Part shown: one piece after another, positions 15,330 through 44,813 of the stretch
How the letters are laid out: each line of letters starts with the position of its first letter
Position numbering within the stretch: the first letter of the stretch is position 1
NCBI GenBank assembly: GCA_016280635.1
Contig: JAEEHC010000015.1
Span: 1-64,000 of the forward strand
DNA: 64,000 nucleotides
Origin: Erysipelotrichaceae bacterium
GTDB lineage: Bacteria > Bacillota_I > Bacilli_A > Erysipelotrichales > Erysipelotrichaceae
Reading direction: 5' to 3'
Position numbers and translations under genes: made by a program
The notes under the pieces: generated by a model
Seen by the model: the letters and a program-made list of their open reading frames with translations, nothing else
What the model was told of the DNA's origin: nothing
Database searches by the model: none

Positions 15330-17489
15330 CTACTCCGAGCGCTTGAGGACATCGCGGGGCTTGGAACCGCGCGGTCCGGAAATGACGCCGTTGTATTCCA
15401 GGGCATCGATCAGATTGGCGGCATGGGGATAGCCCATGTTGAAACGCCTCTGGATCTGATTGGCAGAAACGGTTTCCTGGGTCATGACCCATTTTTCCAC
15501 TTCCGGATACTGTCTGTCCTTGACACCCGAAGGTACGCTTTCGCCGCTTTCGCCTTCTTCCTGCTCATCATGCAGGAAGCGGTCATCATATTCCGGATAA
15601 TAGCCGCTCTTGGTGAAGTATTCAGTGACCGTGTCGATCTCCTGCTTGGAAACGAAGACACCCTGTATGCGTGTCGGCCTGCCGGCATCACCGGGCTTGA
15701 ACAGCATGTCGCCGTTGCCCAGCAGTTTCTCGGCACCCGGAGCATCAATGATGGTCTTGGAGTCGTATCCGCTGATTACCGCAAAGGCAATGCGGGAAAC
15801 GATGTTGGCCTTGATGGTACCGGTAATGACATCGGTAGAAGGTCTCTGGGTAGCCAGGATCATGTGAATGCCCGCTGCCCGGGACAGCGATGCCAGACGG
15901 CTTACGGAAATCTCCAGTTCCTTGCCATGGTGGTTCATGATGTCGGCGAGCTCATCAATGATGCAGACGATCCGGTAAATCTTGCGTTCCGGATACTTTT
16001 CATTGAACTCATCGATGTTGCGTGCGCCGCTGTTGGAGAACAGTTCGTAGCGTTCATTCATGATCTGTTCCAGTTTGACCAGGGCAGAAGGAACCTTGTC
16101 GGATTCGGTGATGATCGGACAGATCAGATGCGGAATGTTGGCGTAGGCGGAGAATTCCACCTTCTTGGGGTCAACCAGCAGCAGTTTGACTTCATCAGGT
16201 CTGGCTCTTAAAAGAATGGTCAGGATGATGGAATTGATGCAGACGGATTTGCCGCTGCCGGTAGCACCGGCTACCAGGATGTGAGGCATCTTATTTATCA
16301 GGCTGTAAACGCCCTTGCCGGTAATGTCTTTGCCAAGAACGAACATCAGCGGTTCGTACTGGTACTTGTCGGGAACATCCTTAAGCAGTTCCTTGAGCCT
16401 GACCAGCGTCGGCTCCTCATTGGGTATCTCAATGCCGACTGCTCTTTTTCCCGGAATCGGCGCCTCAATGCGAAGGGAAGGAACGGCCATGGCCATCTTC
16501 ATGTTGCCTTCAATGGTCGCATATTTGTTGATGTTGAAGCTGCCTTCCGGTACGATCTCAAACTGAGTGATCGATGGTCCGATGTTATAACCTTCCAGCC
16601 GGGAATCCAGGTCAAATGATTCAAGGATGTCCCGGAGAAGTTCCCACTTTTCCGCGGCGTTGCGGCGGTTGATACTGCCCTTGTTTACCGACGGAGTTTC
16701 CAGATAGGACAGGGAAGGCAGTTTGAAGTTCTTCAGCGGTGTTGGTGTGGATGAAGCCGGTACGACCGCCGGGACCTCCGCTTCCTTCTTCTCTTCTCTT
16801 CTTTCCAGCTTAGTTTCCAGCTGTTTTCTTTCATTTTCCAGTTCCAGTTTGAGCTGCTTTTCCTTTTTCCTTTCCTGCTGACTGGCTTTGATCTCGTCAA
16901 ACAGGGTAAACTGTCTTGCTTTTTCTTCTGCCGGTTTCTTCTTGACCGTCTCGGGCTTTTTCGGCCGGTTCAGCAGCTTTCTGATCTCCGGAAGGTGAAT
17001 CAGTACGCCAACCGCAAACAGCACGCAGATGACGATTATGACGCCCCAGAAGTCAGCGGCAGCCGAAATCAGTCCGTAAGTAATAACGCCGGACAGACCG
17101 CCCTTGCCCATTTCTCCACCGGAAATGATCTCTTTGCTTCGGGAAAAGAATTCCTTAATAAGATTCAGACCGCCTTCGCTTTTTCTAAAGGAAACGCAGC
17201 CGCAGATCATCAAGCTGGCCAGAAAGAACAGTCCGATGCTCGTCCAGACCTTGTTGGGTAGCCGGAAGCGGAAAGCTCGCATGATGCAGTAGATGGTGAT
17301 CAGAACATAGGGAATAAACCACAGAACGCCAAACAGAAACCGGCTCAACAGATAAAGCCAGCGGCCGAGAAAACCGGTCATCTCATGCATCAGAGCGATC
17401 AGGCACAGCACGATCGCTATGACCAGATAAAGATAACCGATGAAGTTCTCATCTGCGGTATTTTTCTTTCTGTTTCTGGTTTTGTTCAT
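15330..17489 (-). CDS. ftsK: FtsK/SpoIIIE DNA translocase
   Basis: Septal DNA pump that clears chromosome ends during division. The 719 residues comprise four N-terminal membrane segments (about residues 18-175), a charged lysine- and glutamate-rich linker (about 180-250), the motor with Walker A GATGSGKSV (about residue 405) and Walker B LVDPKKVEFS / CIIDELADIM, and a C-terminal winged-helix gamma domain (residues about 650-719, RRFNMGYPHAANLIDALE) that reads polar DNA signals. AGGAG precedes the ATG, 12 bases after the RNase J-like gene. A multi-membrane N-terminus and complete gamma domain indicate a full-length division translocase. Confidence 0.96.
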   Translation of the reverse strand: MNKTRNRKKNTADENFIGYLYLVIAIVLCLIALMHEMTGFLGRWLYLLSRFLFGVLWFIPYVLITIYCIMRAFRFRLPNKVWTSIGLFFLASLMICGCVSFRKSEGGLNLIKEFFSRSKEIISGGEMGKGGLSGVITYGLISAAADFWGVIIVICVLFAVGVLIHLPEIRKLLNRPKKPETVKKKPAEEKARQFTLFDEIKASQQERKKEKQLKLELENERKQLETKLERREEKKEAEVPAVVPASSTPTPLKNFKLPSLSYLETPSVNKGSINRRNAAEKWELLRDILESFDLDSRLEGYNIGPSITQFEIVPEGSFNINKYATIEGNMKMAMAVPSLRIEAPIPGKRAVGIEIPNEEPTLVRLKELLKDVPDKYQYEPLMFVLGKDITGKGVYSLINKMPHILVAGATGSGKSVCINSIILTILLRARPDEVKLLLVDPKKVEFSAYANIPHLICPIITESDKVPSALVKLEQIMNERYELFSNSGARNIDEFNEKYPERKIYRIVCIIDELADIMNHHGKELEISVSRLASLSRAAGIHMILATQRPSTDVITGTIKANIVSRIAFAVISGYDSKTIIDAPGAEKLLGNGDMLFKPGDAGRPTRIQGVFVSKQEIDTVTEYFTKSGYYPEYDDRFLHDEQEEGESGESVPSGVKDRQYPEVEKWVMTQETVSANQIQRRFNMGYPHAANLIDALEYNGVISGPRGSKPRDVLKRSE

Positions 17490-17501: not shown

Positions 17502-19163
17502 CTATATGTTTATTTCAATGATGGCGGGCAGGATCATGGGCTTTTTGCCAGTCTCTCGGAGAACGTAGCGGGCAGCCATTTCCCGCATCTCCGCTCTGAC
17601 CTCCATGTTGTTGAATTCTTTGCGGGTTGCCTTTTCCTCAATCAATTCTATGCACATCTTGGCCAGATTCTTGATAAGGTATTCTGAATCCTTGACATAG
17701 ATGACTCCTCTGGACTGGATGTCCGGACCGGCAATGACATGCTTGGTATTATAGTCAACGGCTATGCCGATGATGATGACACCGTCCGTGCTCAACAGTT
17801 CCCTGTCGCGCAGTACTGAAGAGGTGATGTCTTTCTTTTCCTCCTCGTTGATCAGATTCTCGCCGATGTTGTCGATCACTTCGGCAGTAGTCTTCAATCG
17901 GCCGTCTTCAAATTCAGCGATCTGGCCGTTATCGAGGATGATGATCTTGTCAGGGGTAAAGCCGATGCCGACCGCCAGATTGGCAGCGTTGACAAAGTCG
18001 CGGTACGACCCGGCAACCGGCATGAAGTAGGTCGGCTTGAGCAGGGAAAGGAACATCTTGATGTCCTCCTGGGAGGGATGCATGGAAAGCACCTGCTTGG
18101 CATCCAGCTTGACGACGTGGACATTGTCGCGGTAAAGCTCATTTTCCATGGCGCTGGCTTCCTTCTCAGCTCCGGAGACGGCCGGGGAGGCGATGATGAC
18201 GGTATCGCTTTCCCGTAATTCAATCTGTTCATCCTCACCGATTGCGATCCGGTACATGCCGTTGAAGACCCGTCCGCCAAAACCGGTTACCAGAATGACG
18301 CAGTCATCCATTTCGTTGCGGAAGCTGCCGGGAGCCAACAGGACATCCTTGGGTGGTGTGTAGTAGTTGTTTTCCGCGAAGATGTTCAGATAGCTGCGGT
18401 ATTTGCTGTCGCGGATGTAGACCTTTTTATGGAATTCTCCTGCCAGATCAAAGATTTCCTTGATGCGGAAATAGTTCTGGCCGTAGACGGTAATGACGAT
18501 CCTTCCCTGAGCATCCTCAAATACCGGACGCAGAAGGTTGGTTATGCAGTGGCGGGGAGAAGTAAAGCCTTCCCGGTCAGCGTACATGCTTTCGATCATC
18601 GCAACCAGAACGCCCTTCTTGCCGATATCGGCGATCTTGCCGATGTCAGTCTTGAAGTAATCACTGGTCATGTCAAAGTAGGTGACATATTCGCTGGCAA
18701 AGACGATCTGACCCTTAGGAGTATCGATGGCTACGCCGATGGCATCAGGAGCTGAGGAAGTCAGACCGAAGCTGGTAACGGTAACGCCGTCGATCACCGT
18801 TTCACCGCTGCGGGGCAGCCTGTGAAGGGTGTATTTGGTAATGTTGTCTTCCTTGAGGTATTCTCTTAAAAAGCGCAGGCATATTTCCGTAGCGTAAACC
18901 GGGACATTCAGTTCCTTCAGGAAGAAGGGAACGGCATCCATCATGTCGTCATGCATGTTGGTTACGATGATGGCTGCCACTTTATCGCTGTTTTCCTTAA
19001 GGTAGGAAATGTCGCAGATGACATAGTCGATGCCGAACTGCGAGACATCAGTTCTCTTTATGCCGCAGTTGACCACAAAGATCCTGCCGTCTACTTCTAC
19101 ACAGTAAAGGTTCTTTCCGTTTTCATCTAATCCGCCTAAGGCGTAAAGTCTCAGATTATTCAT
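17502..19163 (-). CDS. RNase J-like protein lacking most metal ligands (predicted pseudoenzyme)
   Basis: Full-length (553 residues) relative of RNase J: an MBL half, a beta-CASP insert and a C-terminal domain, colinear with RNase J (VICDISYLKENSDKV, PSQEDIKMFLSLLKPTYF, VDYNTKHVIAGPDIQSRG). RNase J normally degrades RNA 5' to 3' and cuts endonucleolytically using two zincs. Here the ligand motif HxHxDH reads NMHDDM (residues 69-74), the later NHSIPD position reads TSSAPD, HTGDF reads FASEY and PVHGEYR reads PVAGSYR. Only some ligands remain, so catalysis is unlikely. B. subtilis RNase J2 is a partly degraded partner of J1, and this may be a more extreme structural subunit. GAGGG precedes the ATG. 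The gene overlaps miaB by 8 bases. Confidence 0.88.
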   Translation of the reverse strand: MNNLRLYALGGLDENGKNLYCVEVDGRIFVVNCGIKRTDVSQFGIDYVICDISYLKENSDKVAAIIVTNMHDDMMDAVPFFLKELNVPVYATEICLRFLREYLKEDNITKYTLHRLPRSGETVIDGVTVTSFGLTSSAPDAIGVAIDTPKGQIVFASEYVTYFDMTSDYFKTDIGKIADIGKKGVLVAMIESMYADREGFTSPRHCITNLLRPVFEDAQGRIVITVYGQNYFRIKEIFDLAGEFHKKVYIRDSKYRSYLNIFAENNYYTPPKDVLLAPGSFRNEMDDCVILVTGFGGRVFNGMYRIAIGEDEQIELRESDTVIIASPAVSGAEKEASAMENELYRDNVHVVKLDAKQVLSMHPSQEDIKMFLSLLKPTYFMPVAGSYRDFVNAANLAVGIGFTPDKIIILDNGQIAEFEDGRLKTTAEVIDNIGENLINEEEKKDITSSVLRDRELLSTDGVIIIGIAVDYNTKHVIAGPDIQSRGVIYVKDSEYLIKNLAKMCIELIEEKATRKEFNNMEVRAEMREMAARYVLRETGKKPMILPAIIEINI

Positions 19164-20610
19164 TTTCTGCCCTCTTTTCGGAAACGTCGATCCCGTTCAG
19201 GGAATTCTTCATTCCTTCCGTTATCCTTACATTAATTATATCACCTACACGGGCTTTTTCGGAACGGAAGTTGACCAGTTTCTGCTGGCGGGTATAGCCG
19301 GACATGACGCTGCTGTCAGTCTTGGAAACACCGTCAACTAAGACGTCATAGACCTTTCCTTCGCACTGTTTGTTGCGCATCTTGGAGTATTCGCCAAGTC
19401 TGCCGTTCAGCTCAGCCAGTCGTTCCTTCTTTTCCTGAAGGGAAACATTATCCTCCATCCGGGCTGCCGGGGTTGACTCCCGGGGCGAGAAGATGAAGCT
19501 GTAGGCATTGTCATATTTGCAGTAGTCAACAACGCTGAGCGTATCCTCAAACTGCTGGCGCGTTTCATTGGGGAAGCCGACTATTATGTCAGTTGAAACG
19601 GCAACATCGCTCACACGGCTTACAATGCGGTCGTAGAGGTCAAGATACTGCTCTCTGGTGTAGCGCCGTCCCATTCTCTTCAGTATTTCATCATTGCCCG
19701 ACTGCAGGGGAAGGTGAATGAAGGGCATGATGTTTTCCCGGCTGGCAATGGCATTGATCATCTCATCGGTAAAGTCCCAGGGATGGGAAGTGGTGAAGCG
19801 CAGCCTGGCAATGCCCAGATCAGCAACTTCATTAAGCAGACCGGCGAAGTCATATCCCATTTTCAGATCCTTGCCATAGGCATTTACGTTCTGACCGATC
19901 AGGGTGATCTCCTTATAGCCGGCATCAATCAGCTGACGGCATTCCTTCAGGACATCTTCCTTCAACCGGCTGCGCTGCTGACCGCGGGTATAGGGGACGA
20001 TGCAGTAGGTACAGAATTTGTCACAGCCGTCCATGATGTTGACAAAGGCCTTATGGCGACTGGAGCGGATGGTCGGCATTCCCTCAAAGATGCTGCCCTG
20101 CTGGGAAAGCACTTCGATGCTGCGCTGATCATTGACGATGATGTTTTGCAGCAGTGCCGGTAATCTATGAATGTTATGAGTGCCAAACATCAGGTCAACG
20201 ACCGGGTGCTTTTCTACGATCCTGCGGGCCATCTGCGGTTCCTGAGCCATGCAGCCGCATACTCCGATGATCAAACGCGGGTTGCGTCTTTTGTAGGCCT
20301 GCAGAAAACCGAGCTCGCCGACGACTTTGTTTTCGGCGTTCTCTCTGATCGCACAGGTATTCAGGATTATCAGATCAGCCAGGGCCATGTCCTCAACGGC
20401 TTTAAATCCCATCTGTTCAAGAATTCCGCAGATCACCTCACCGTCCCTGACATTGGCCTGACAGCCATAGGTCGAAACGAAATAATTGAGGCCGTTTCCC
20501 AGGATCTTCTGCTCTTCACTTAGGACAACGGGGTCGCGGACAATCTCGGTACGGAAACTGCTGCTTCTGATACGGGCCTGTTTCTCATCAGGAAGTCTGA
20601 ATTCACTCAT
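19156..20610 (-). CDS. miaB: tRNA-2-methylthio-N6-isopentenyladenosine37 methylthiotransferase
   Basis: Radical-SAM iron-sulfur enzyme adding the methylthio group to i6A37 of tRNAs reading U-starting codons. The N-terminal domain has three cluster cysteines (STYGCQAN about C50, LNTCAIRENAE about C86, VCGCMAQ about C120). The radical-SAM motif CDKFCTYC follows at about residue 193, and a C-terminal TRAM domain (EGKVYDVLVDG onward) binds tRNA. 484 residues is full length. AAGGG lies 9 bases before the ATG. A terminator stands only 15 bases upstream, so expression may depend on read-through from the rny-ymdB-ferredoxin transcript. Confidence 0.97.
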   Translation of the reverse strand: MSEFRLPDEKQARIRSSSFRTEIVRDPVVLSEEQKILGNGLNYFVSTYGCQANVRDGEVICGILEQMGFKAVEDMALADLIILNTCAIRENAENKVVGELGFLQAYKRRNPRLIIGVCGCMAQEPQMARRIVEKHPVVDLMFGTHNIHRLPALLQNIIVNDQRSIEVLSQQGSIFEGMPTIRSSRHKAFVNIMDGCDKFCTYCIVPYTRGQQRSRLKEDVLKECRQLIDAGYKEITLIGQNVNAYGKDLKMGYDFAGLLNEVADLGIARLRFTTSHPWDFTDEMINAIASRENIMPFIHLPLQSGNDEILKRMGRRYTREQYLDLYDRIVSRVSDVAVSTDIIVGFPNETRQQFEDTLSVVDYCKYDNAYSFIFSPRESTPAARMEDNVSLQEKKERLAELNGRLGEYSKMRNKQCEGKVYDVLVDGVSKTDSSVMSGYTRQQKLVNFRSEKARVGDIINVRITEGMKNSLNGIDVSEKRAENE

Positions 20611-20860: not shown

Positions 20861-21643
20861 TCAGCCGTTTAGATCAGGTCTGATCTGAATGCGTCTGATT
20901 GCCGTCGCCTCCTTTTTGCTTAAATCAATATCGCAGATGATCGCTGACAGCATTCCTTCTCCCTCAGCCACCGTGTATCTGGTGGGTTCAAGGCGGACAT
21001 TGCTGGCGATCAGTTCATCGATGTCCCGGCCGATTATCGAGTGATACGGACCGGTCATGCCGATGTCGCAGATGAATGCGCACCCTTCATGGATCGCTTC
21101 ATCCGCTGTCTGAACATGGGTATGGGTACCGGCGATGAGCTGGCACTTGTCCTTGAAGTATTCCATGAACAGATATTTTTCCCCGCTTGCTTCACCATGG
21201 AAGTCCACGATGCGGATATCGCAGGGATTCTCCTTCATCAGCCTTTCAAAGGCCGTAAACGGACTTTCGGAAACCTGGTCCATGAAGACGCTGCCGTAAA
21301 TGTTGAACACCCCGATGCTGTAGCCCTGCCATTGAATGATCCGGGCTGAGCGGCCAATACCGACCGGTTCCATGTTAGCCGGTCTGATCAGGCGTTCAGC
21401 CGAATCAATGAAGGTAAGAATGTTATCCTTGCTGAAGGCATGGTTACCAAGGGTAATGCAGTCGGCGCCAAGATCAACCAGGAAATCGTAGATCTTTCTG
21501 GTGATTCCTTTGCCGTGGGCAGCATTTTCGCCGTTGACGATCATTAAGTCGTAGCCGTATTCTTCCCTGAGAGCGGGAAGACTGCTTTCCAGCATCATCC
21601 GGCCTGGGCGGCCGACGATGTCGCCGACAAACAGTACTCTCAT
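20861..21643 (-). CDS. ymdB: YmdB family metallophosphoesterase
   Basis: Calcineurin-fold enzyme of the YmdB family; the Bacillus protein hydrolyses 2',3'-cyclic nucleotides and affects biofilm and motility programmes. Metal-site motifs are present: GDIVGRPGR, VNGENAAHGKGIT, TLGNHAFSKD, DFHGEASGEK and AGTHTHVQTADE. 260 residues is full length. It begins one base after the rny stop, the conserved rny-ymdB pairing, so RNase Y and this phosphodiesterase are co-made. Confidence 0.95.
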   Translation of the reverse strand: MRVLFVGDIVGRPGRMMLESSLPALREEYGYDLMIVNGENAAHGKGITRKIYDFLVDLGADCITLGNHAFSKDNILTFIDSAERLIRPANMEPVGIGRSARIIQWQGYSIGVFNIYGSVFMDQVSESPFTAFERLMKENPCDIRIVDFHGEASGEKYLFMEYFKDKCQLIAGTHTHVQTADEAIHEGCAFICDIGMTGPYHSIIGRDIDELIASNVRLEPTRYTVAEGEGMLSAIICDIDLSKKEATAIRRIQIRPDLNG

Positions 21644-21644
21644 G

Positions 21645-23198
21645 TTATCTGGCGATTTCGTTGGCTCTGGTTTCTCTGATGACCGTTACCTTGATCTGAC
21701 CTGGATAGGTAAGTTCGCTTTCGATCTTATCCTTGATCTCTCTGGCCAGCCGGTAACAATTGATGTCATCGACCTTGTCGGGCTGAACCATAACTCTGAT
21801 CTCACGTCCGGCCTGAATGGCATAACTCTTGTCAATGCCTTCAAAGCTGTTGGCGATCTTTTCAAGTTCTTCCAGACGGTTGACATAGTTTTCCAGCGAT
21901 TCATAGCGGGCACCGGGTCTGGCAGCTGACAGTGCGTCAGCGGCAGCGACCAGGTTGGAAATGATGCTGGTGGGTTCGGTATCGCCATGGTGAGAGGCAA
22001 TAGCGTTGATGACAACATCATTTTCGCCGTGCTTCTTGGCTACCTTGACACCCAGTTCAACGTGGGAGCCTTCCTGTTCGAAGTCAATGGCCTTGCCAAT
22101 GTCATGCAGCAGACCGGCTCTTTTGGCCAGCGACTGCTTGACGCCCAGTTCAGCGGCCATCATGCCGGCCAGATGGGCAACTTCCAGGGAATGCTGAAGG
22201 ACATTCTGTCCATAGGAATAACGGTATTTCAGCCGTCCGATCAGTCTGATCAGTTCGCGGTCGATCTTTCCCAAGCCAAGCTGGAAGACAGCGTCTTCGC
22301 CGGCTTTCTGAATCACTTCATTGAGCTCCTCAGTCTTCTTGGCGACAACTTCTTCGATGCGGCCCGGCTGAATGCGGCCGTCCTTAATCAGATGTTCCAT
22401 CGTCAGTCTGGCGATTTCCCTTCTGATCGGATCGAAGCAGGAGATGGTAATGGTTTCCGGGGTATCATCAATGATGAGGTCAACACCGGTGGCCTGTTCG
22501 ATGGCTCTGATGTTGCGGCCTTCACGTCCGATGATGCGGCCCTTCATTTCTTCCGAAGGCAGACCGACAACGGATACGGTCCGGTCGATGGTTTCTTCCT
22601 GAGAATATCTCTGAATGGCCTGGCCGATGATGTTACGGGCGATGTCGGAAGCGTTGGCCTTGGCCTTTTCTTCTTCGTCCTTAATATATGCTGCCATTTC
22701 ATTGGCGGTCTGGGTCTTTACAAGATCGAATAACTGTTCCTTGGCTTCACCGGCAGTCATGCTGGCAACCTTTTCCAGGACAGCCTGCTGGCTGTTGATC
22801 TTGTTTTGCAGGTCAGCTTGCATCTTATCGAGCTCTGCAGACTTCTTTTCGTTTTCTTCTAGTTTATCGCTTAATTGTTTTTCTTTTGATTGGACTTTTT
22901 CTTCTTTAAAGTTTAAAGAACTTTCGCGCCTGATGAGCTTGTTTTCCACATCATTGAGTTCCTGGCGCTGTTTCTTTATTTCCTTCTCTGCAGCAAGTTT
23001 CAACTCATATGCTGAATTCTTTCCGTCCAGGACTGCCTGTCTCTTGATCGATTCAGCTTCAATATTAGCTTCCTTTAGAATTAAACTAGCTTTTTCCTTG
23101 TTCTTGTTAAGACCAAGGCGGGAGATGATGACCATGATGATCACACCCGCTAAAATGCCTACAATGCCGCATAAGATGTAAGGCATATTTTCTTTCAT
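21645..23198 (-). CDS. rny: Ribonuclease Y
   Basis: Membrane-tethered endoribonuclease initiating mRNA decay in many Bacillota. Layout: an N-terminal membrane helix (residues 5-26), a long charged coiled coil (about 30-190), a KH RNA-binding domain with [11 protein letters not shown] (about 225-260), and an HD domain with the catalytic HDIGKA (about 363) and ASHHGD. 517 residues matches the family. GGAGG lies 9 bases before the ATG, and an extended -10 promoter lies upstream. In this genome RNase Y may carry most of the decay load if the RNase J-like protein in this window is inactive. Confidence 0.97.
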
Positions 23199-25572: not shown

Positions 25573-25918
25573 AAACTTAACTAACTGGTAAGCCATGTTC
25601 TGTCCTTGCTGAGCAAGGGGCAATCATTTATCTACGCTTGCGCGTCCCTGGCCGCTTCATTTCGCGGTTTCGGATTCCCCTACCAAAATTTGGGTTTCTC
25701 ACTTATGGGGTTTACATCGTTCCACTTCAACCGTTTCCGGAAGAACTTCGTCACTGTTGCACTTTACGGTCCGCCACCATGGATTGCTCTTTAGGTATGG
25801 TTACCGCCGTCGGCGCCTGGCCTTATTTATTAAGCCAGCATAATCGTTACTGCCATCGCAGGCAGTGTGAGCATGGACTTTCCTCTACCCTGAAGGGCAG
25901 CGATTGCCTTGTTAGTTA
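25573..25918 (-). ncRNA. rnpB: RNase P RNA, type B
   Basis: Catalytic RNA that trims tRNA 5' leaders. On the minus strand the conserved blocks are GAGGAAAGTCCATGCTC near the 5' end, ACAGTGACGAAG, GAAACCCAAATTTTGGTAGG, AGATAAATGATTGCC and the 3' ACAGAACATGGCTTAC; these follow the Bacillus-type order. Helix P1 pairs TAACTAAC (25911-25918) with GTTAGTTA (25578-25585), so the 5' end includes the gpsB stop codon. A possible TATTTA -10 lies inside the end of gpsB. The gpsB-rnpB order is also seen in Bacillus. Ends are approximate to a few bases. ORFs called across it (25606-25794, 25638-25976) are artefacts. Confidence 0.97.
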
Positions 25919-28827: not shown

Positions 28828-31800
28828 TTAGTTGAGACCCTTTCTTCTCTTGAATAACAGGATCGCTAAGCCTAATCCGGAGATGGTCATCATGGCAATG
28901 TAGGCACCCAGATGGCTGTGGTCGCCGGTATCCGGAGTATCCGGATTAGCCGGAATGACAACGGTCTTGGTGTCAGTATAGGTCTTGCCGTCCGGTCCGG
29001 TTACGGTAGCGGTGATTTTCTTTTCGCCATCTTCCGTGCCGGTCGGTTCCTTGACGATCTCTTCAGTGATCTCAGCATTGACTTCTTCTTCGTGCTCAGG
29101 ATCTCTCTGGCAGATGAAGGTAGCGGTGGCGGCAGTATTGTCGTCATTCCAATCCCAGGTCGGTTCACCCCACAGGTGACCGAGGCCTTTAATGGTTGCT
29201 ACCGTTTCTTCATCGAGTTCGGTATTTTCATTGGCTTCGTTCTGAACGACGGTTACATCGCTGTCCAAGCAGCCCGGTTCGAATTTGATCGTAGCCAGTA
29301 CGCTGCCGGCCTCAACGCCTTCAAGACTTACGAAAGTGAAGATGATCTCGCCCTTCTCTTCGTCAACATTGAGTGAATTGAATTCCAGTTCATCGCTGGC
29401 CTTAGCGGAGACGAAAGTCAGTTCTTCCGGATCGTAGGTGATGGTATATAAGGCGTTATTCAGATTTTCGGTATCAGTGACAGTAACAGTGGTCGTCTCG
29501 TCTGCGGTCTCGGTCTCAAGGACAGTCTTCATATTGACGGCTTCAATACCTCTGATTCTCTCAGCAGCCGGTGCGGCTGACTTGATGACATCCAGAGTTC
29601 CGTACGGATTCTTGGTTCTCTGCTCGTCCTTAATTTCAGATGCATCCTTGACTTCAGCACTCTGCAGTTTTCCGTCACTGTTCTTGAACCACTGCTGGGC
29701 TCTGGCAATGATGGATGAGTTCAGCGCATCAGTATCAGCATCGTAGGATCCCCATAAAGTGGAGATGTTTTCAGTGCCGTTTAACTGTCCGACATAAACA
29801 TCGTTGATCGGAGCGCCCTCTCTGGCTTCAATGGTGGACAGGTCAATCATGTAGACTGCCTGTGTTGTGTTGTCAGCGATGAACAGGCTTTCCTTATAGC
29901 CGTCGCCGTCTTCTTCGATCTGATAGGCCATGGAGTAGGCGGTAAGGTCTTCACCGATTCTTAAGGTTGATAAGGTACCCAGCCATGTCCACTCGCATTC
30001 CTTGCCATCCTCTGTATCCTGAACGTACATCAGGCAGAGGTCGCCATCGGAATCAAGAATCATGTAGTACAGCCTGGTATTGCCGCCATTGGCGTCAGCA
30101 CCGATGTAGTCAAGAGCTACACCGTAGAAGTAGCCGCCTTCACCTAAGGCGAAGTAAGTCAGGGACTTGTCTTCACGCAGGAATTCCCAATGTCCGACTT
30201 CACTGAAGCCGCACAGGATGAACTCATTGACGGTTTCCTCACCGGTGATGTTGCTGGTCCACTTCGGAGCGGCAGCGCCATCGATGATGGCATAGGTCGG
30301 GTTGAGTGCGAATGAGAATTCGCCGTCATAGGCAAAGTCATTAGTGGCGTCATATCTGTGGAAATCATTGTCGGAGTCATTTCCGTATACCCAGTTGCCT
30401 CCGCGTCCGCCGCCGTAGAAGGCGCTGAACGGACTGCCACCCAAATCTTTCATAGACATGTCATTCAGGTCGATGGAGACGAACTTGACATCTTCGCCGA
30501 TCTGGACCTGTCCATTGATTACAGCGTCAACTGGCGTAGCTTCCAGAACGGTAACTTCACAGGTTCCATAGACGCTCGGCGTCTTATTGGAAGTAGCTCT
30601 GATCAATACTCTGCCAGGAGCAACTGCGGTAACAGTGCCTTCAGCATCTACTGTAGCAACGCTTTCATCTTCTGATGACCAGGTAACGCTCTTATCGGGA
30701 ATTACCATCGGCTTGATGGTGGTAGTGAGCTGGACGCTTTCGTTGACACCCATGATCAGCGTGGCATTGTCGGGATTGACGATGACATCAGATACTTCAT
30801 TGGGGTCAATTTCGACTTCGATAGTTTCCACGGTCTTTTCATACAGATAGATTGCTCCCGGTGTACCGTAGAAGAACGGGTAGGTCGGGTAGTAGTTCTT
30901 ATCATAGTACATGCCGTTTCTGGTTCCCTTTACTGACAGCGTGTATCTGCTGTAGTTGAAGGTATCAGCGTCATCGGCACTTGACCAGGTAACATAAGGA
31001 TAATTGGTCTGATAGTAGCCCAGATAGCTGCCATCGGCCTTGTTGGTAAAGACACCGTTGTTAACGGTCCAGAGGATTTCATCTTCTACACCGGCTTCTT
31101 CAATGTAGGTACCGAACTGATCATCAGTCTTAACGGTAACATTGCCGCTGGTGGCAAACTCATTGGTTACGTCAGCCGGACCTGAAGTCTTCAGGGCAAC
31201 ACCGGCACCGGCCTGGTTGGTATTGAGGATGATGTATTCACCTGATGCAGCCAGGTTGGCAGTGAGCTTGTAAATGGTAACTTTTTCTTCGACTGTAACG
31301 GTTCCTTCGATGTCAGCCAGCAGATAGGAATTCTGGTTGGAGGCATAGTCGCCGATGGTCAGAGTTGCGGTTTCCGGGAATTCGATTTCCGTGGTATCAA
31401 AGGTCATTTCAATGACCTGACCAGGTTCCGTCTGCTCCGGCAGTTCAAGGTATGCCAGATTGTTGCCGCTGATATCTGTAATCATTACGGCAGCGACATA
31501 CTGGTTGTCCTGGAACTTGACGGTGACCTTGGTCTTGTCTTCGGACCAGACAGGATCTTCAAGCAGCTGCGGAGCAACGGAGTCAATCATGAAGGTATAG
31601 CCTTCCATGGCGCCCTTGCCAATCTCGCCCTTTGCATAGAGGTCGACGATGTCTTCCGCGGAGATCCTGTTATCCTTGGCGTTCTTGTCAAGCATCAGTG
31701 CATAGTATTCCGGTACGGCAAACAGACCGAAGGTGAACTTGTCGCCTTCATTCAGGCCTAAATCAGCGACCTTGGCATTGAACTTCTGGGTAGAAACCTT

Positions 31801-34800
31801 GTTGTTATACCAGACGGCACCGTTGACATAGTACCAGGCACCCTGCAGGGTCTTGGCATTGCTCTTGTAGAGGATGTTGTTATCTTCGTCAAAGGCAATT
31901 CCCTGGAAGGTTCCGGCATTTCTGGTCAGGATGTAATTGATGTCGGTGATGACAGCGTTGCCGTTGATGGCAAGTCTGTCTTCCGGCCATTCATCTTCAA
32001 CGAGATAGGGGTTGCCGGAGAAGTAAGTGCTCTTGGCATCGCCCGGGTTCTTGAAGGAAAGCATGCTGGTGAAATAGTCACCGAAGTACGGATAGTTGTT
32101 GTTTCCGTATAAGTTCTTAATGGCATTGGTGTTTTCAAACATCGTCGGATCAGTCCAGCTTCCGAAGAATCCTAAGATCGGGATGCTGTAAACGGAAGCG
32201 TCGATGTAGGCATCATCAGTGGTAACACCGGTCGGAACGGCAAAGGTAAAGCCTTCAATGTAGGCACCGTTGGGATAGTATTCGTTAAGGATTTCCTTTT
32301 CTTCATCACTGAGGGTCAGCTTGACCTTGATGGTCTTGGTCTGACCGGGCAGGATGGTTACTTCGGTTTCTTCTTCAACTTCAGTGTTCAGCCACTTGAG
32401 CAGCTTGTAGGCATCAAGGGAAGTGATCTTGCCGTTGCCGTCAAAATCAGCCTTGTCCGTATTGATGTCTTCAGCCTTCAGAATTCCGGTCAGGTAATCA
32501 AGAATGGCCTGAACGTCGTTCTTATCAGTGTCGCCGTCCTTATCAACATCATAGGTATCCGGCGTATTCTTCTGCCAGTCATAGACATCGTCGGCTTCCA
32601 GTAATCTGGTCGTCTTGAGCATGTATAACTGACCCTGACTGTCGGCTCCAAGATCCTGGGTGAACAATTCGGTGAATAAGAGGTAGGTATTCGTTTCATC
32701 AGCCATGTTGGTGATGTTGAATGAGTATTCATAAACGCCATTGCGCTTGGCATCCTGACCAAGTTCGACCTTGATCTTGCCGTCAGCGTAGGAATTGGTG
32801 GCGTCTTCATTCATCGTCAGGAATGACTTGGCGGTTACGGCAGCGTAAACATCAGCCAGACCGGAACCCTGTCTGAGAATGGGAACATATGCTACGTCAT
32901 TGATCATCGGGCTGGCCGTTGACATTAACAAGCTCTGAGTAACCGTTCTCTTATTGAGACCGAGTCTTTCATCAAGGCCGGTTTCCTCAATGTACTGACC
33001 GACTACGGCGGCCAGACCGCCGACTGCCGGTGCGGACATTGAAGTTCCGCCCATGGTCTCAAAGTCGTTATCGGTCATGCCGTTTACGGACCAGATGTTT
33101 CCGCCGGGAGCGGTAATCTCCGGCTTCATTACCAGTGAGCTGGGTACGCCCCAGGAGGAGAAGTCAGTGATGACAGCATCTTCCAGTTCATCATGAACGG
33201 TAGCTTCAGCCTTTTCATAAATGACGACGGTACCGGTATAGTAATCATAACCACCAGCGGTCTTCTTTTCGCTCTGCTTCAGCACGGCGCCATCGCTCTG
33301 AAGGATGGAGACCATCGGGAAACTGCCGGTATAATCATCAAGAGCCATGTTGATGGTTCCTGGCTGGTTGTTGACAATGATCAGGGCAGCCGGGTTATAG
33401 TCGATCAGATTGTTGCCCTTTTCCACAAAGGAGAGGGATCCACGGTTGACAAGCACGACCTTGCCGGCCAGACTTTCAACCTCATTAACAGCCTGATATT
33501 CAGCAGGATCACCAATGGCATCAATGTAGACATAGTCATAAGAGCCGCTGATGGTCCATAACTTGACAGCCTTGCTTTCGGTTTCGGTGTAGAAGGACTT
33601 CAGAGAGCCGTTAAATACGATCGGTCTGCCAACGGAACCGATGTTCTCGGCCGCGGCAACGGACAGTGAATTGATATATGTGCCCGGCGAACCGGCGGTA
33701 TTCATGTTGACATCGGTATTGTAGAGATAATTGTGATATTCCATGAAGTCCGTGAAAGCGTAGTTGTTGCCGGCGGAGATGGAAACGGTCGCGCCGCAGT
33801 CTACCAGTTTGTCCATGATGGACTGGTAGCCTTCCGCAAAGGTAAAGCCGTTAGCTGAACCTAAGGAGAGGTTGATGGCGTCCGCGCCTAAGATGACGGC
33901 GTCTTCAATGGCCGCAAAATAGTCAGAGTCATAAGCTCCGCCGCCCTTGCCAAAGACCTTCATTACCAGGATCTGAGCATCCGGAGCCATGCCTACGGCA
34001 CCGGTTTCCTCAGCGGCATCAACAAATTCGCCATTATCGCCTTCAACATAGCGGTTGGCTGCGGCAATGCCGCCGACATGTGAGCCGTGTTCACCCTGAG
34101 TATCTGAATAGTGATCAGTGGTATAGTTGCCGTCAATGTAGTTGAAGGCAAACGGGATCTTCAGGTTCTTATATGCCTCTTCTGCGGATGAGATGTTATG
34201 CTTGGCAGCGGCATTATTGGCGTTGAGCTGGGGTAACAGATCAGCGATGTCGCCTTCAAACAGCAGGTCATAATCTTCAATACTCTTGCCGTCCTTGGTC
34301 AGTGAATATGCCAATGCATCCGGATTGAAGGACAGGTGGTTATGGTTGACACCGGTATCGATGATGGCAACCTTGCTTCCGGCACCGGTATAGCCAAGAG
34401 CCCAGCTCTGCGCTGCGCCGGTCATGTATTCGGAAGTAATGGCGGTATCCGGATCGGCTCCGGAGTTCTTGTCAACCTCATAGCGGTTTTCCACGAAGAC
34501 ATTGACAACACCGTCGACCTTCTTGATCTCCATGATGTCGCCATATCTGACATTGGCGGAAATGATGTTGGCGGCCAGAGTCAGGTTCCAGACGACATCG
34601 AGTGTCTTATTAAGAGCGGACTCGATTTTTCTGGTCACGGTCTTCTGCTGGCTGGCAACGACCTGACGGTAGGAGATGGCCTTTCTGTTGTGTCCGATTC
34701 CATCAAGTTCATAGCCGGCGTCAATTACTGACGGCTTGCTTAATTCGATGGAGACACGAACGATGTCATCCTTGCTGTATCTGGCTTCATTGCTCTGCGG

Positions 34801-35007
34801 CTGCGGAGCCTTGAAGCCATCAGACAGAGTCGGAACGTGGATCTTGTCCTGATCGACGGTCTGTACGGTCAGTTCAGTCTTCACATTTCCTTCATCTGTG
34901 GCAGCTGTATTATCCGGTAATGTTTCGGCTAAGGCGCTGACAGCGTTGCCGCACAATAACATTACGCTCAATAATACTGCGAAGAAACGTTTTGTTAACT
35001 TACTCAC
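28828..35007 (-). CDS. Giant secreted S8 subtilase with dockerin, Big_2, cohesin-like and wall-anchor regions
   Basis: Cell-surface serine protease of the lactocepin/C5a-peptidase type, 2,059 residues. GTG 35007 is chosen since AAAGGGG lies 7 bases upstream and a signal peptide follows (FFAVLLSVMLLCGNAVSALA). Order: prodomain; S8 Asp in VAIIDTG (about 217), His in HGSHVGG (about 307), a PA insert, and Ser in GGTSMSAPAVGG; a Fn3-like domain; a dockerin pair (DVDKDGDTDKNDVQ, DFDGNGKITSLDAY; DNA about 32390-32570); ligand-binding-like regions; Big_2 (VTWSSEDESVATVD); a cohesin-like domain (ALYTITYDPEELTFVSA); an NPDTPDTGD tail, hydrophobic helix and KRRKGLN. PDTGD departs from LPxTG. Likely degrades host or food protein; substrate unknown. 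Confidence 0.93.
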   Translation of the reverse strand: MSKLTKRFFAVLLSVMLLCGNAVSALAETLPDNTAATDEGNVKTELTVQTVDQDKIHVPTLSDGFKAPQPQSNEARYSKDDIVRVSIELSKPSVIDAGYELDGIGHNRKAISYRQVVASQQKTVTRKIESALNKTLDVVWNLTLAANIISANVRYGDIMEIKKVDGVVNVFVENRYEVDKNSGADPDTAITSEYMTGAAQSWALGYTGAGSKVAIIDTGVNHNHLSFNPDALAYSLTKDGKSIEDYDLLFEGDIADLLPQLNANNAAAKHNISSAEEAYKNLKIPFAFNYIDGNYTTDHYSDTQGEHGSHVGGIAAANRYVEGDNGEFVDAAEETGAVGMAPDAQILVMKVFGKGGGAYDSDYFAAIEDAVILGADAINLSLGSANGFTFAEGYQSIMDKLVDCGATVSISAGNNYAFTDFMEYHNYLYNTDVNMNTAGSPGTYINSLSVAAAENIGSVGRPIVFNGSLKSFYTETESKAVKLWTISGSYDYVYIDAIGDPAEYQAVNEVESLAGKVVLVNRGSLSFVEKGNNLIDYNPAALIIVNNQPGTINMALDDYTGSFPMVSILQSDGAVLKQSEKKTAGGYDYYTGTVVIYEKAEATVHDELEDAVITDFSSWGVPSSLVMKPEITAPGGNIWSVNGMTDNDFETMGGTSMSAPAVGGLAAVVGQYIEETGLDERLGLNKRTVTQSLLMSTASPMINDVAYVPILRQGSGLADVYAAVTAKSFLTMNEDATNSYADGKIKVELGQDAKRNGVYEYSFNITNMADETNTYLLFTELFTQDLGADSQGQLYMLKTTRLLEADDVYDWQKNTPDTYDVDKDGDTDKNDVQAILDYLTGILKAEDINTDKADFDGNGKITSLDAYKLLKWLNTEVEEETEVTILPGQTKTIKVKLTLSDEEKEILNEYYPNGAYIEGFTFAVPTGVTTDDAYIDASVYSIPILGFFGSWTDPTMFENTNAIKNLYGNNNYPYFGDYFTSMLSFKNPGDAKSTYFSGNPYLVEDEWPEDRLAINGNAVITDINYILTRNAGTFQGIAFDEDNNILYKSNAKTLQGAWYYVNGAVWYNNKVSTQKFNAKVADLGLNEGDKFTFGLFAVPEYYALMLDKNAKDNRISAEDIVDLYAKGEIGKGAMEGYTFMIDSVAPQLLEDPVWSEDKTKVTVKFQDNQYVAAVMITDISGNNLAYLELPEQTEPGQVIEMTFDTTEIEFPETATLTIGDYASNQNSYLLADIEGTVTVEEKVTIYKLTANLAASGEYIILNTNQAGAGVALKTSGPADVTNEFATSGNVTVKTDDQFGTYIEEAGVEDEILWTVNNGVFTNKADGSYLGYYQTNYPYVTWSSADDADTFNYSRYTLSVKGTRNGMYYDKNYYPTYPFFYGTPGAIYLYEKTVETIEVEIDPNEVSDVIVNPDNATLIMGVNESVQLTTTIKPMVIPDKSVTWSSEDESVATVDAEGTVTAVAPGRVLIRATSNKTPSVYGTCEVTVLEATPVDAVINGQVQIGEDVKFVSIDLNDMSMKDLGGSPFSAFYGGGRGGNWVYGNDSDNDFHRYDATNDFAYDGEFSFALNPTYAIIDGAAAPKWTSNITGEETVNEFILCGFSEVGHWEFLREDKSLTYFALGEGGYFYGVALDYIGADANGGNTRLYYMILDSDGDLCLMYVQDTEDGKECEWTWLGTLSTLRIGEDLTAYSMAYQIEEDGDGYKESLFIADNTTQAVYMIDLSTIEAREGAPINDVYVGQLNGTENISTLWGSYDADTDALNSSIIARAQQWFKNSDGKLQSAEVKDASEIKDEQRTKNPYGTLDVIKSAAPAAERIRGIEAVNMKTVLETETADETTTVTVTDTENLNNALYTITYDPEELTFVSAKASDELEFNSLNVDEEKGEIIFTFVSLEGVEAGSVLATIKFEPGCLDSDVTVVQNEANENTELDEETVATIKGLGHLWGEPTWDWNDDNTAATATFICQRDPEHEEEVNAEITEEIVKEPTGTEDGEKKITATVTGPDGKTYTDTKTVVIPANPDTPDTGDHSHLGAYIAMMTISGLGLAILLFKRRKGLN

Positions 35008-35094
35008 AAAATATCCCCTTTCTATTCCACGCAAAAAGCACATACGTATGAATATAACATAATTCTAAAAGACAACCGTCCTCTTTTCAACATT

Positions 35095-41346: not shown

Positions 41347-44076
41347 CTATTCACCGCAGACAACGCAGTGGCAGCGGTGACACAAGCCGTTTTCATCGAC
41401 TTCGTCAACGATGTTCCAGCATCTCGGGCAGGCCTTGCCTTCGTACTTTTCCACCTTGATCCAGCCGGTTTCATACTCATCGTATTTTTCATCGGTGAGC
41501 TTGAACTGGGATGCGATTACCAGCTGCGCCAGATCATGCTCGCTGAGTCCTTCCAGGCAATCCCGGTATTCTTCCTTGACATTCATCAGGATACGGGCTT
41601 CCAGAGCCTTTTTGGCGACACCGGCATTCTTGGCTTCTTCCAGAGCCTTGAGGATGTCGTCTCTGACGGTGAGATACTTATCCCACTTGGCCACCAGCGC
41701 TTCGTCTTCCGGATGCTTTTCACTGACCGGCATGCTTGCCAGTAAGACACTCTTTTCTTCCGGCTTGAAGATGCTGTAGACTTCCTCCATCGTGTAGGAA
41801 AGGATCGGAGCCCACAGTCTGACCAGAACATCGGTGCACTGATAGAAGACGGTCTGAATCTGTCTTCTTCTAAGGCTGTCTTTCTTCTCAATGTAGAGAA
41901 TGTCCTTGGCATAATCCATGTAGAAGGCGCTTAAAGTCTTGGACATGAAGTTAAACAGCGTGCTGGTCAGGGAGATGTAATCATAGCGGTTGTAGCCGTC
42001 TCTGACCTTGTCGATGGTCTGATTCAGCAGAGCCAGGATGTACTTGTCCAGACTCTCCAGTCTTTCGTATTCAATGTGGTCTCTTTCATAATTAAAGTCA
42101 TCGGCATTGATGTTTCCCAGCAGATAGCGGAAGGTGTTTCTGACCTTGCGGTAGAAATCGGAATTCTGCTTGAAGATGTCATCTGAGCAGGGCAGGTCAG
42201 CCTTGAAGTCAACGCTGGCGACCCATAAGCGGAGAATGTCAGCACCATACTTGGCAATGACATCCAGCGGGTTGACGGTATTACCCAGTGACTTGCTCAT
42301 CTTCAGGCCCTTGCCGTCAACGACATAGCCATGAGACAGAACGCTCTTGTAGGGTGCCTGGCCATGGGTGGCAACACCGACGGTCAGTGATGAGTTGAAC
42401 CAGCCGCGGTACTGGTCGGAGCCTTCCAGATAAAGATCACAGGGATACTTGTATCCTCTTCTTTCAAAGGTATTGTGTGAGCTTCCGGAGTCAAACCAGA
42501 CGTCCATGATGTCCTTTTCCTTGGTAAACAGGCCATTGGGTGAACCCGGATTGGTATATCCTTCCGGTAAGAGTTCCTTGGCTTCCTTTTCGAACCAGAT
42601 GTTGGAACCGTACTTTTCAAACAGCTGGGCGACGTGTTCAAATACTTCTTCTTCAATGATCGGCTTACCGGCTTCATCGTAGAAGATGGGAATCGGTACG
42701 CCCCAGACTCTCTGACGGGAAATACACCAGTCGCCGCGGTCCTTGATCATGTTATGGATCCTGATCTGGCCGAAGTCGTTCTCCCACTTGACTCCATCAA
42801 TGGCCTTCAGCAGTTCATCTCTGATCTTTTCGATGGAGGCAAACCACTGCACGGTGGCCCGGAAGATGACCGGCTTCTTCATTCTCTCATCATGAGGATA
42901 TGAGTGGGTAACAAATTGCAGCTTCAGCAGATGGCCCAGTTCATCCAGCTTGGCAACGACGGTCTTATTAGCGTCATAAACGAACTGTCCTTCCAGGAAA
43001 TCGCCGGCTTCAGCTGTCATGCAGCCCTTCTCGTCAACCGGACAGAAGGCGGGAATGCCGTACTTGGTGCCGACATAGAAGTCATCAAGACCATGACCGG
43101 GGGCGGTATGAACGCATCCGGTGCCGTCTTCGTCAGTAACGTGGCTGCCCAGGATGATCAGGGAAGTCCGATCATAGAAGGGATGCTTGACGGTGATGTA
43201 TTCGAGCTGGCTGCCCTTAAAGGTCCTTAAGACCTCATATTCCGGCAGTTCAAAGGCCGCCATCAGTTTTTCAACCATGGAATTAAGAACGATCAGCTTG
43301 CCCTTGGCCGTCTTTACGACAGCGTACTGGAAATCAGGATTGAGGCAGATAGCCAGATTTGCCGGGATGGTCCAGGGGGTAGTGGTCCAGATTACGAACT
43401 TTTCGTCGCCATCCAGAACACCCTTGCCATCAACGACATCAAAGGTTACATAGATGGTCGGGTCCTTGCGGTCCTGGTAGAAGATCTCGCTGTCGGCGAC
43501 GGCGCTCTCTCTTTCCGGAGACCAGTAGATCGGTTTCAGACCCTGGTAGATCAGACCCTTGACGGCCATCTTCCCGAAAGTGCGGATCTGATCGGCCTCA
43601 AAGGATTTATGCAGGGTAATGTATGGATGATCAAAGTCAGCTACCGTTCCCAGACGCTTTTCGGTGGCCTTCTGAATCTCAATCTGCTGGAGGGCATATT
43701 CCTCACACTTGGCGCGGAAGTCGGCGGTAGACATTTTCTTGCGGTCATAGCCGAGCTTGGGCATGGCATTTTCGATCGGAAGACCGTGGGTATCCCAGCC
43801 GGGATAGAATGGCGTATCATAGCCCATCATGTGCTTGCTCTTGACGACGAAGTCCTTCAGACAGCGGTTCATGGAAGTACCCATGTGCAGGTTGCCGTTG
43901 GCATACGGCGGACCATCGTGCAGCATGAAGCTCTCCTTGCCCTTGTTCTGTTCAGTCATCAAATCATAAAGACGCATCTCTTCCCATTTGGCCAGGATCT
44001 TCGGTTCCTTGGTCGGTAAGTTGGCTCTCATTTCAAATTCCGTTCTGGGCATTAACAGCGTATCCTTGTAATCCAT
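41347..44076 (-). CDS. ileS: Isoleucine-tRNA ligase
   Basis: Class I synthetase charging tRNA-Ile with editing of valine. Signature HIGH variant GNLHMGTSMNR (near residue 60), CP1 editing region, KMSKS in GLKMSKSLGN (about 600), and a C-terminal zinc ribbon CPRCW...CHRCHCVVCGE. The track's start is too early; ATG 44076 (MDYKDTLLMPRT) lies 9 bases after AAGGA and fits the usual IleS beginning, giving 909 residues. A T-box leader controls it, and it follows sepF-ylmH-divIVA as in many Bacillota. Confidence 0.97.
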   Translation of the reverse strand: MDYKDTLLMPRTEFEMRANLPTKEPKILAKWEEMRLYDLMTEQNKGKESFMLHDGPPYANGNLHMGTSMNRCLKDFVVKSKHMMGYDTPFYPGWDTHGLPIENAMPKLGYDRKKMSTADFRAKCEEYALQQIEIQKATEKRLGTVADFDHPYITLHKSFEADQIRTFGKMAVKGLIYQGLKPIYWSPERESAVADSEIFYQDRKDPTIYVTFDVVDGKGVLDGDEKFVIWTTTPWTIPANLAICLNPDFQYAVVKTAKGKLIVLNSMVEKLMAAFELPEYEVLRTFKGSQLEYITVKHPFYDRTSLIILGSHVTDEDGTGCVHTAPGHGLDDFYVGTKYGIPAFCPVDEKGCMTAEAGDFLEGQFVYDANKTVVAKLDELGHLLKLQFVTHSYPHDERMKKPVIFRATVQWFASIEKIRDELLKAIDGVKWENDFGQIRIHNMIKDRGDWCISRQRVWGVPIPIFYDEAGKPIIEEEVFEHVAQLFEKYGSNIWFEKEAKELLPEGYTNPGSPNGLFTKEKDIMDVWFDSGSSHNTFERRGYKYPCDLYLEGSDQYRGWFNSSLTVGVATHGQAPYKSVLSHGYVVDGKGLKMSKSLGNTVNPLDVIAKYGADILRLWVASVDFKADLPCSDDIFKQNSDFYRKVRNTFRYLLGNINADDFNYERDHIEYERLESLDKYILALLNQTIDKVRDGYNRYDYISLTSTLFNFMSKTLSAFYMDYAKDILYIEKKDSLRRRQIQTVFYQCTDVLVRLWAPILSYTMEEVYSIFKPEEKSVLLASMPVSEKHPEDEALVAKWDKYLTVRDDILKALEEAKNAGVAKKALEARILMNVKEEYRDCLEGLSEHDLAQLVIASQFKLTDEKYDEYETGWIKVEKYEGKACPRCWNIVDEVDENGLCHRCHCVVCGE

Positions 44077-44097
44077 ATTCCTCATTCCTTCTTTCCT

Positions 44098-44318
44098 TAA
44101 AAAAACGTCCTCAGATCTAAGGACGTCATAACGCGGTACCACCTTAGTTCATGAGCTCAGTGCCCATGCCCTTAATTGATCATTAACGCAGATTCACGAC
44201 ATGCCTTACTTATTTCAGGCAGGTAACTCCCAGGTGATGTCTGATGATAACTCTGACCGGCTTTCACCAACCGCCGGTTCTCTGATTGCCTCTTATCAGC
44301 AGCGCGTCCTGTTCAACG
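44098..44318 (-). promoter_or_regulatory. T-box riboswitch, tRNA-Ile specific
   Basis: The T-box sequence AAGGTGGTACCGCG (about 44132-44145, minus strand) precedes the terminator ACGTCC / GGACGT with a seven-T tail. Stem I contains GACATCACCTGGGAGT with AUC as specifier, by alignment with the pheS leader. I see no separate promoter; the leader begins directly after divIVA, so it may act on read-through. Confidence 0.94.
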
Positions 44319-44321
44319 TTT

Positions 44322-44813
44322 TTAGTTTTCTTCAGTATTTTCAGTTGTATGTTCAGTTGTGACTTCGAACGGATTGGGTACTTCCAGATCACCGTAGCTG
44401 TCGATCGTATCCAGCAGGTTGCTGATGGATTCCCGCAGCACTCTGGTCTTTTCCTGATTCTGCTCGCTGAACTTCTTCATCGTATCGACATAGCCCTGAA
44501 CCTTAAGCATGGCTTCATCAATGATGTCGTCAGCGCTCTTCTGAGCATCAGTGATGATGTTGTTGGCTTCCAGCAGCGCCAGACGGCCGACATCATCAGC
44601 CTGCTTTTCTCTGGCCTGAAGTTCACTGACCAGAAGCTGATATCTCTTCTTGATCATGTTGAACTGGTTGTTAAGCGTTTCGATCTGATTCTGATAAAGT
44701 AATATTTTTTCATTCAGCTCACGGACATGGTACTCATACCGGTCGATCTCGTTGTCGACCTGATAGCAGTCATAGCCGCTGGTTACTAAATTGAAACGAT
44801 GATTTCCGTTCAT
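44322..44813 (-). CDS. divIVA: DivIVA domain cell-division protein
   Basis: 163-residue coiled-coil protein that marks curved membrane at septum and poles. An N-terminal DivIVA-type region (FNLVTSGYDCYQVDNEIDRYE) is followed by a long coiled coil through about residue 130, then an acidic Thr/Glu tail. The N-terminal motif is divergent from the classic FRGYDxxEVDxFLD pattern, although position in the sepF-ylmH-divIVA-ileS cluster supports the name. It begins 12 bases after ylmH. A second DivIVA-family protein, GpsB, is encoded at 25.9 kb. Confidence 0.86.
   Translation of the reverse strand: MNGNHRFNLVTSGYDCYQVDNEIDRYEYHVRELNEKILLYQNQIETLNNQFNMIKKRYQLLVSELQAREKQADDVGRLALLEANNIITDAQKSADDIIDEAMLKVQGYVDTMKKFSEQNQEKTRVLRESISNLLDTIDSYGDLEVPNPFEVTTEHTTENTEEN

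Follow-up and report, generated by a model that had tools for sequence, protein, structure and literature searches.

An RNase J2 orthologue with two of the seven metal ligands of RNase J1 in an Erysipelotrichaceae gut bacterium

RNase J1 of Bacillus subtilis holds one metal ion with H74, H76, H142 and D164 (site 1) and the other with D78, H79, D164 and H390 (site 2) (PMC5383250), and F52 and R267 are the RNA-sandwich residues of RNase J (PMC4652760). It is unsettled whether RNase J2 is an enzyme or a partner, because its activity is needed in Enterococcus faecalis and its role looks structural in Staphylococcus aureus. The E. faecalis RNase J2 activity is required in vivo, and active-site mutants of this protein still bind RNase J1 (PMC5383250). 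The H76A/H78A mutant of S. aureus RNase J2, in which both histidines of the HxH motif are replaced, grows like the wild type, and deletion of RNase J2 makes the cells sick; the authors have proposed that RNase J1 supplies the active site and that RNase J2 is mainly structural (PMC3937233). S. epidermidis RNase J2 has endonuclease activity with a single metal ion, its activity is affected by mutation of the metal ligands, and its binding to RNase J1 is weak; the structure paper leaves open whether other RNase J2 proteins bind one metal ion (PMC7864078). The C-terminal domain of Streptococcus mutans RNase J2 binds RNase Y and FtsZ (PMC6759994), and RNase Y is a degradosome partner of RNases J1 and J2 in other Firmicutes (PMC4419217). 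A literature search found no paper on RNase J in Erysipelotrichia and no paper naming RNase J2 a pseudoenzyme.

The gene described here lies in the window, which is the whole 64,000-nucleotide stretch of contig JAEEHC010000015.1 that was analysed. The features of the locus are as follows.

15330..17489, minus strand: ftsK/spoIIIE, DNA translocase, 12 bp downstream of the RNase J2 gene and its conserved neighbour
17502..19163, minus strand: rnjB, RNase J2 orthologue of 553 amino acids with 2 of 7 metal ligands (open reading frame list, alignment, tree and fold model)
17511..17816, minus strand: RNase_J_C, the C-terminal domain (residues 450-551), which is more conserved than the other domains in the family RNase J2 proteins (Pfam, 90.2 bits)
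18942..18959, minus strand: former HxHxDH motif, codons for N69-M70-H71-D72-D73-M74 (translation and alignment)
19156..20610, minus strand: miaB, tRNA methylthiotransferase, upstream of the RNase J2 gene and overlapping its start by 8 nt
20861..21643, minus strand: ymdB, phosphoesterase, between rny and miaB
21645..23198, minus strand: rny, RNase Y, upstream of the RNase J2 gene

Thus, rny, ymdB, miaB, the RNase J2 gene and ftsK are carried on a single strand. The ATG codon of the RNase J2 gene is located 8 nt inside the 3' end of miaB and is preceded by the Shine-Dalgarno-like sequence AAAGAGGG. This sequence and the uninterrupted 553-residue reading frame agree with the first-pass annotation, in which the gene was described as intact with a good ribosome binding site. 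The GC content and third-position GC content of the gene are those of the neighbouring genes, giving no sign of recent import. A second metagenome-assembled genome (MAG) record, JAFRZA010000040.1 (Goat_Omasum; loci L004/L017), encodes an RNase J2 that is 87% identical and has identical letters at the seven ligand positions. The ligand losses are therefore not a sequencing accident, and an assembly error is ruled out by this separate record.

Three other features of the window were recorded, all on the minus strand. A 2071-residue open reading frame with subtilase, PA, dockerin type I and Ig-like domains (28828-35043) encodes a large dockerin-carrying protease in an Erysipelotrichaceae genome, which is presumably secreted. 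A class B RNase P RNA is located at 25584-25915. A T-box leader at 44116-44325 lies just upstream of a 931-residue open reading frame (41347-44142) and slightly overlaps its listed GTG start.

The window gene is not an orphan but rnjB, the RNase J2 orthologue of this Erysipelotrichaceae gut bacterium. A tree was built from 121 RNase J proteins (quick LG+G4, ligand columns removed, without bootstraps); in it, the window protein groups with S. epidermidis RNase J2 and the RNase J2 proteins of the class, apart from RNase J1, with an SH-aLRT support of 99. Its best PDB sequence matches are S. epidermidis RNase J2, and its fold model is structurally closest to 9a5v, a crosslinking-based model of B. 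subtilis RNJ2-RNJ1; the text of the paper behind this entry does not mention RNase J. The gene order rnjB-ftsK/spoIIIE, which is also that of B. subtilis, is found in the window. ftsK is located directly downstream on the same strand in every RNase J2 locus of the same family with enough sequence (locus L048 is truncated by the end of its contig) and in 26 of 30 sister-family loci. ftsK adjoins none of the RNase J1 loci. The first-pass annotation treated the protein as a free-standing oddity, and missed both its identity as RNase J2 and the graded loss of ligands across the order.

A search of the genome for a second, intact RNase J, as had been suggested, finds RNase J1 with the motif HGHEDH on contig C5. 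This protein scores 821.1 bits against the RnjA model, above the cut-off of 820, and is 26% identical to the window RNase J2. Each of the seven genomes of the genus encodes an intact RNase J1, and no RNase E/G that could replace it was found in the genome of the window. In two relatives that are near-complete by their stated figures (G022 and G061), neither RNase J nor FtsK is found. The joint absence of RNases J1 and J2 was considered as evidence of mutual dependence and rejected as an artefact, because FtsK is equally missing from these records; negatives from both are unreliable. Third copies of RNase J with all seven ligands, which branch outside RNases J1 and J2 in the tree, are present at loci L144 (G068) and L154 (G298), and an FtsK match is located 1.4 kb away from the former.

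The window open reading frame spans all of RNase J, as the first-pass alignment had indicated, and has the full metallo-beta-lactamase (MBL)/beta-CASP/RNase_J_C architecture. The Pfam scores for RNase_J_C (90.2), b-CASP (55.7) and RMMBL (23.1) each exceed their cut-offs, while that for Lactamase_B_2 (23.2) is below its cut-off of 27. The AlphaFold2 model built with 93 sequences has the RNase J fold with a pLDDT of 88.5, which is low only around residues 441-456, and superposes on S. epidermidis RNase J2 at 2.0 A (439 columns). Among the family RNase J2 proteins, conservation is highest in the C-terminal domain (mean identity 60.8%) and, of the folded domains, lowest in the beta-CASP domain (45.5%); the corresponding values for RNase J1 are closer together (78.1% and 71.9%).

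The ligand positions were compared by aligning the window protein with its own RNase J1, B. subtilis RNase J1, S. epidermidis RNases J1 and J2 and Streptomyces coelicolor RNase J. The positions of the seven B. subtilis RNase J1 ligands H74, H76, D78, H79, H142, D164 and H390 are occupied by N, H, D, M, S, E and A, so that two of the seven are kept. Site 1 is represented by N69, H71, S136 and E158, and site 2 by D73, M74, E158 and A384. Thus, the HxHxDH motif and the two-metal ligand set of active RNase J are absent. All residues named in the first-pass annotation, NMHDDM at 69-74, S136 for H142, E158 for D164 and A384 for H390, are correct. Its description of the protein as stripped of its metal-binding residues is to be qualified in two respects: H71 and D73 are kept, and the change from D164 to E158 is not by itself a loss, as the glutamate at this position (E166) is a metal ligand in S. 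epidermidis RNase J2 (PMC7864078). H362 also remains. The single-metal site of S. epidermidis RNase J2 (H76, H78, H144 and E166) reads N, H, S and E in the window protein, although this site is known from one RNase J2 and does not define orthology. The protein falls below the NCBIfam cut-offs of TIGR00649 (393.4 bits, cut-off 400) and NF047419 (414.5 bits, cut-off 820).

Ligand loss is graded among the RNase J2 proteins. With the seven ligands written in the above order, all sampled RNase J1 proteins read HHDHHDH and the RNase J2 proteins outside the order often read HHDHHDI. Among the 105 RNase J2 proteins of the order (76 of the same family and 29 of the sister family), the sister-family proteins read HHDVHEK or HHDAHEK in 28 of 29 cases and those of the same family mostly HHDVHEK (32) or HHDVQEK (17). 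HHDMHQM is found in ten proteins, from the other members of the genus and from a related genus, and NHDMSEA in the window protein and its sister species. Site 2 is degraded in all 105 proteins, in which H79 is always lost, D164 is replaced by E or Q, and H390 usually by K. In contrast, most of these proteins retain site 1, like the single-metal S. epidermidis RNase J2, but the window lineage has lost it by H74N and H142S. H390 is thus the most widely changed ligand position among RNase J2 proteins, and site 1 goes last. The histidine triad of site 1 has changed its state at least eight times on the tree, and the RNase J2 proteins of loci L056 and L137 likewise keep only two ligands, so that the window lineage represents the far end of a recurring trend and is not unique. 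Lysine takes the place of H390, together with glutamate at the D164 position, in 58 of the 76 family proteins and in 28 of the 29 sister-family ones (loci L018-L122). This Lys-Glu pair might take over the role of the second metal ion; the window lineage has alanine instead of the lysine.

The RNA-tunnel residues F52, R267 and Q311 are replaced by R, S and G in the window protein. F52 and R267 are conserved in RNase J1 and in the sister-family RNase J2 proteins but lost in most RNase J2 proteins of the same family, 42 of 76 of which have Asp or Glu at the R267 position. The 5'-phosphate pocket S-x-H-x-S is kept, and its H368 is present in all 76 family RNase J2 proteins. The window protein is strongly acidic, with a net charge of -20 as compared to -4 for its own RNase J1.

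We infer, with a probability of about 70%, that the window RNase J2 is catalytically dead and is a structural or regulatory partner of the intact RNase J1; it would neither hold metal nor cleave RNA, and would bind RNase J1 and affect its function. The RNase J2 lineage of the order lost site 2 long ago, and the window lineage then lost site 1 as well, probably to become a pseudonuclease. This protein most likely pairs with RNase J1 through its C-terminal and beta-CASP regions and would support the 5' exonuclease work of RNase J1 as a subunit that does not cut RNA itself. The first-pass annotation had listed a scaffold or regulator of RNase J1 among its options, and this is the best-supported one, because the protein is an RNase J2 orthologue, an intact RNase J1 is present, and a structural role has been proposed for S. 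aureus RNase J2. The window lineage is naturally near the state of the S. aureus mutant, which suggests a non-catalytic partner of RNase J1.

It is highly improbable that the gene is decaying and on its way out after loss of function. The protein evolves faster than RNase J1 and the stem branch of its lineage is long (0.42), which would fit decay, but the reading frame is intact in both species and all residues conserved in at least 97% of the family RNase J2 proteins are retained. Comparison of the window and sister-species genes gives a dN of 0.094, a dS of 0.972 and a dN/dS of 0.097, about twice the dN/dS of 0.053 for the RNase J1 genes of the same species. Because the two species share the ligand losses, their divergence is most simply later than these losses, and the dN/dS of about 0.10 measures constraint on the ligand-poor protein. 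This result indicates that the protein is kept by selection, and, with the intact frames, leads us to reject a pseudogene. The earlier suggestion that the fold is kept without the chemistry is borne out by the losses common to two species, this dN/dS value and the confident RNase J model.

Weak endonuclease activity with a single metal ion, on the model of S. epidermidis RNase J2 and using H71, D73, E158 and perhaps H362, is unlikely for the window protein. These four residues could bind metal weakly, which argues against a dead partner; the equivalents of H76, D78 and H368 are invariant or nearly so in the family RNase J2 proteins, and the S. epidermidis enzyme, which is active with one metal ion, uses glutamate at the D164 position as a ligand. 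However, two ligands of the single metal ion, H74 and H142, are replaced here by N and S, and mutation of such ligands affects the activity of the S. epidermidis protein. RNase J2 function differs between species, and the E. faecalis and S. epidermidis proteins show that it is not uniformly structural, which lends residual activity some probability. An action independent of RNase J1 is quite unlikely; in that case the protein would be a regulator with RNA 5' ends as its target, or with another partner such as RNase Y or a division protein. The retained 5'-phosphate pocket, the binding of S. mutans RNase J2 to RNase Y and FtsZ and the adjoining ftsK are consistent with such a role, whereas the loss of the RNA-tunnel residues and the acidic net charge argue against it. 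RNase J2 genes that keep the site 1 ligands also adjoin ftsK, so that the neighbourhood says nothing special about the window protein. The earlier proposal of an RNA-binding factor near the division machinery is not supported, because ftsK adjacency is the general RNase J2 gene order and F52 and R267 are replaced; the division part of it draws only on old synteny. Given the S. mutans interactions, a division link nevertheless keeps a small probability.

A non-catalytic partner of RNase J1 can be compared with several known systems. RNase J1 (contig C5; B. subtilis, 3zq4) has the same fold and domain order as the window RNase J2, but has the seven ligands and the RNA-sandwich residues. The S. 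epidermidis (6k6w, 8yyk) and S. aureus RNase J2 proteins share with it the full RNase J architecture, the RNase J2 clade, coexistence with RNase J1, loss of H79 and H390 and replacement of D164 by E. S. epidermidis RNase J2, however, keeps site 1, at which one manganese ion is held by H76, H78, H80, H144 and E166 (PMC7864078), and the equivalents of H76 and H144 are N and S here. The S. aureus H76A/H78A mutant, which is still a functional partner (PMC3937233), resembles the window protein in that site 1 histidines are altered. That mutant was engineered at both HxH histidines, whereas in the window lineage natural changes of H74 and H142 are fixed in two species and H76 is kept. The window protein is thus a real, conserved and extreme variant of a known protein and a natural test of the structural RNase J2 model. 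The series under purifying selection, from seven ligands in RNase J1 through site 1 only in most RNase J2 proteins of the order to neither site in the window lineage, allows a structural role to be tested directly, with no need for designed mutants. CPSF100 and INTS9 are inactive MBL/beta-CASP partners of the active CPSF73 and INTS11, and the arrangement of the window RNase J2 with RNase J1 appears similar; motif 2 of INTS9 is NYHC (PMC7980224), which can be compared with NMHDDM. CPSF100 and INTS9 are eukaryotic and have their own insertions and C-terminal domains, so that the resemblance is convergent and does not indicate membership. With odds that we regard as roughly even, a bacterial RNase J2 has naturally turned into a metal-free pseudonuclease and an obligate non-catalytic subunit of RNase J1, as an independent counterpart of CPSF100 and INTS9, and the repeated loss of site 1 histidines across Erysipelotrichaceae reflects the same path taken more than once.
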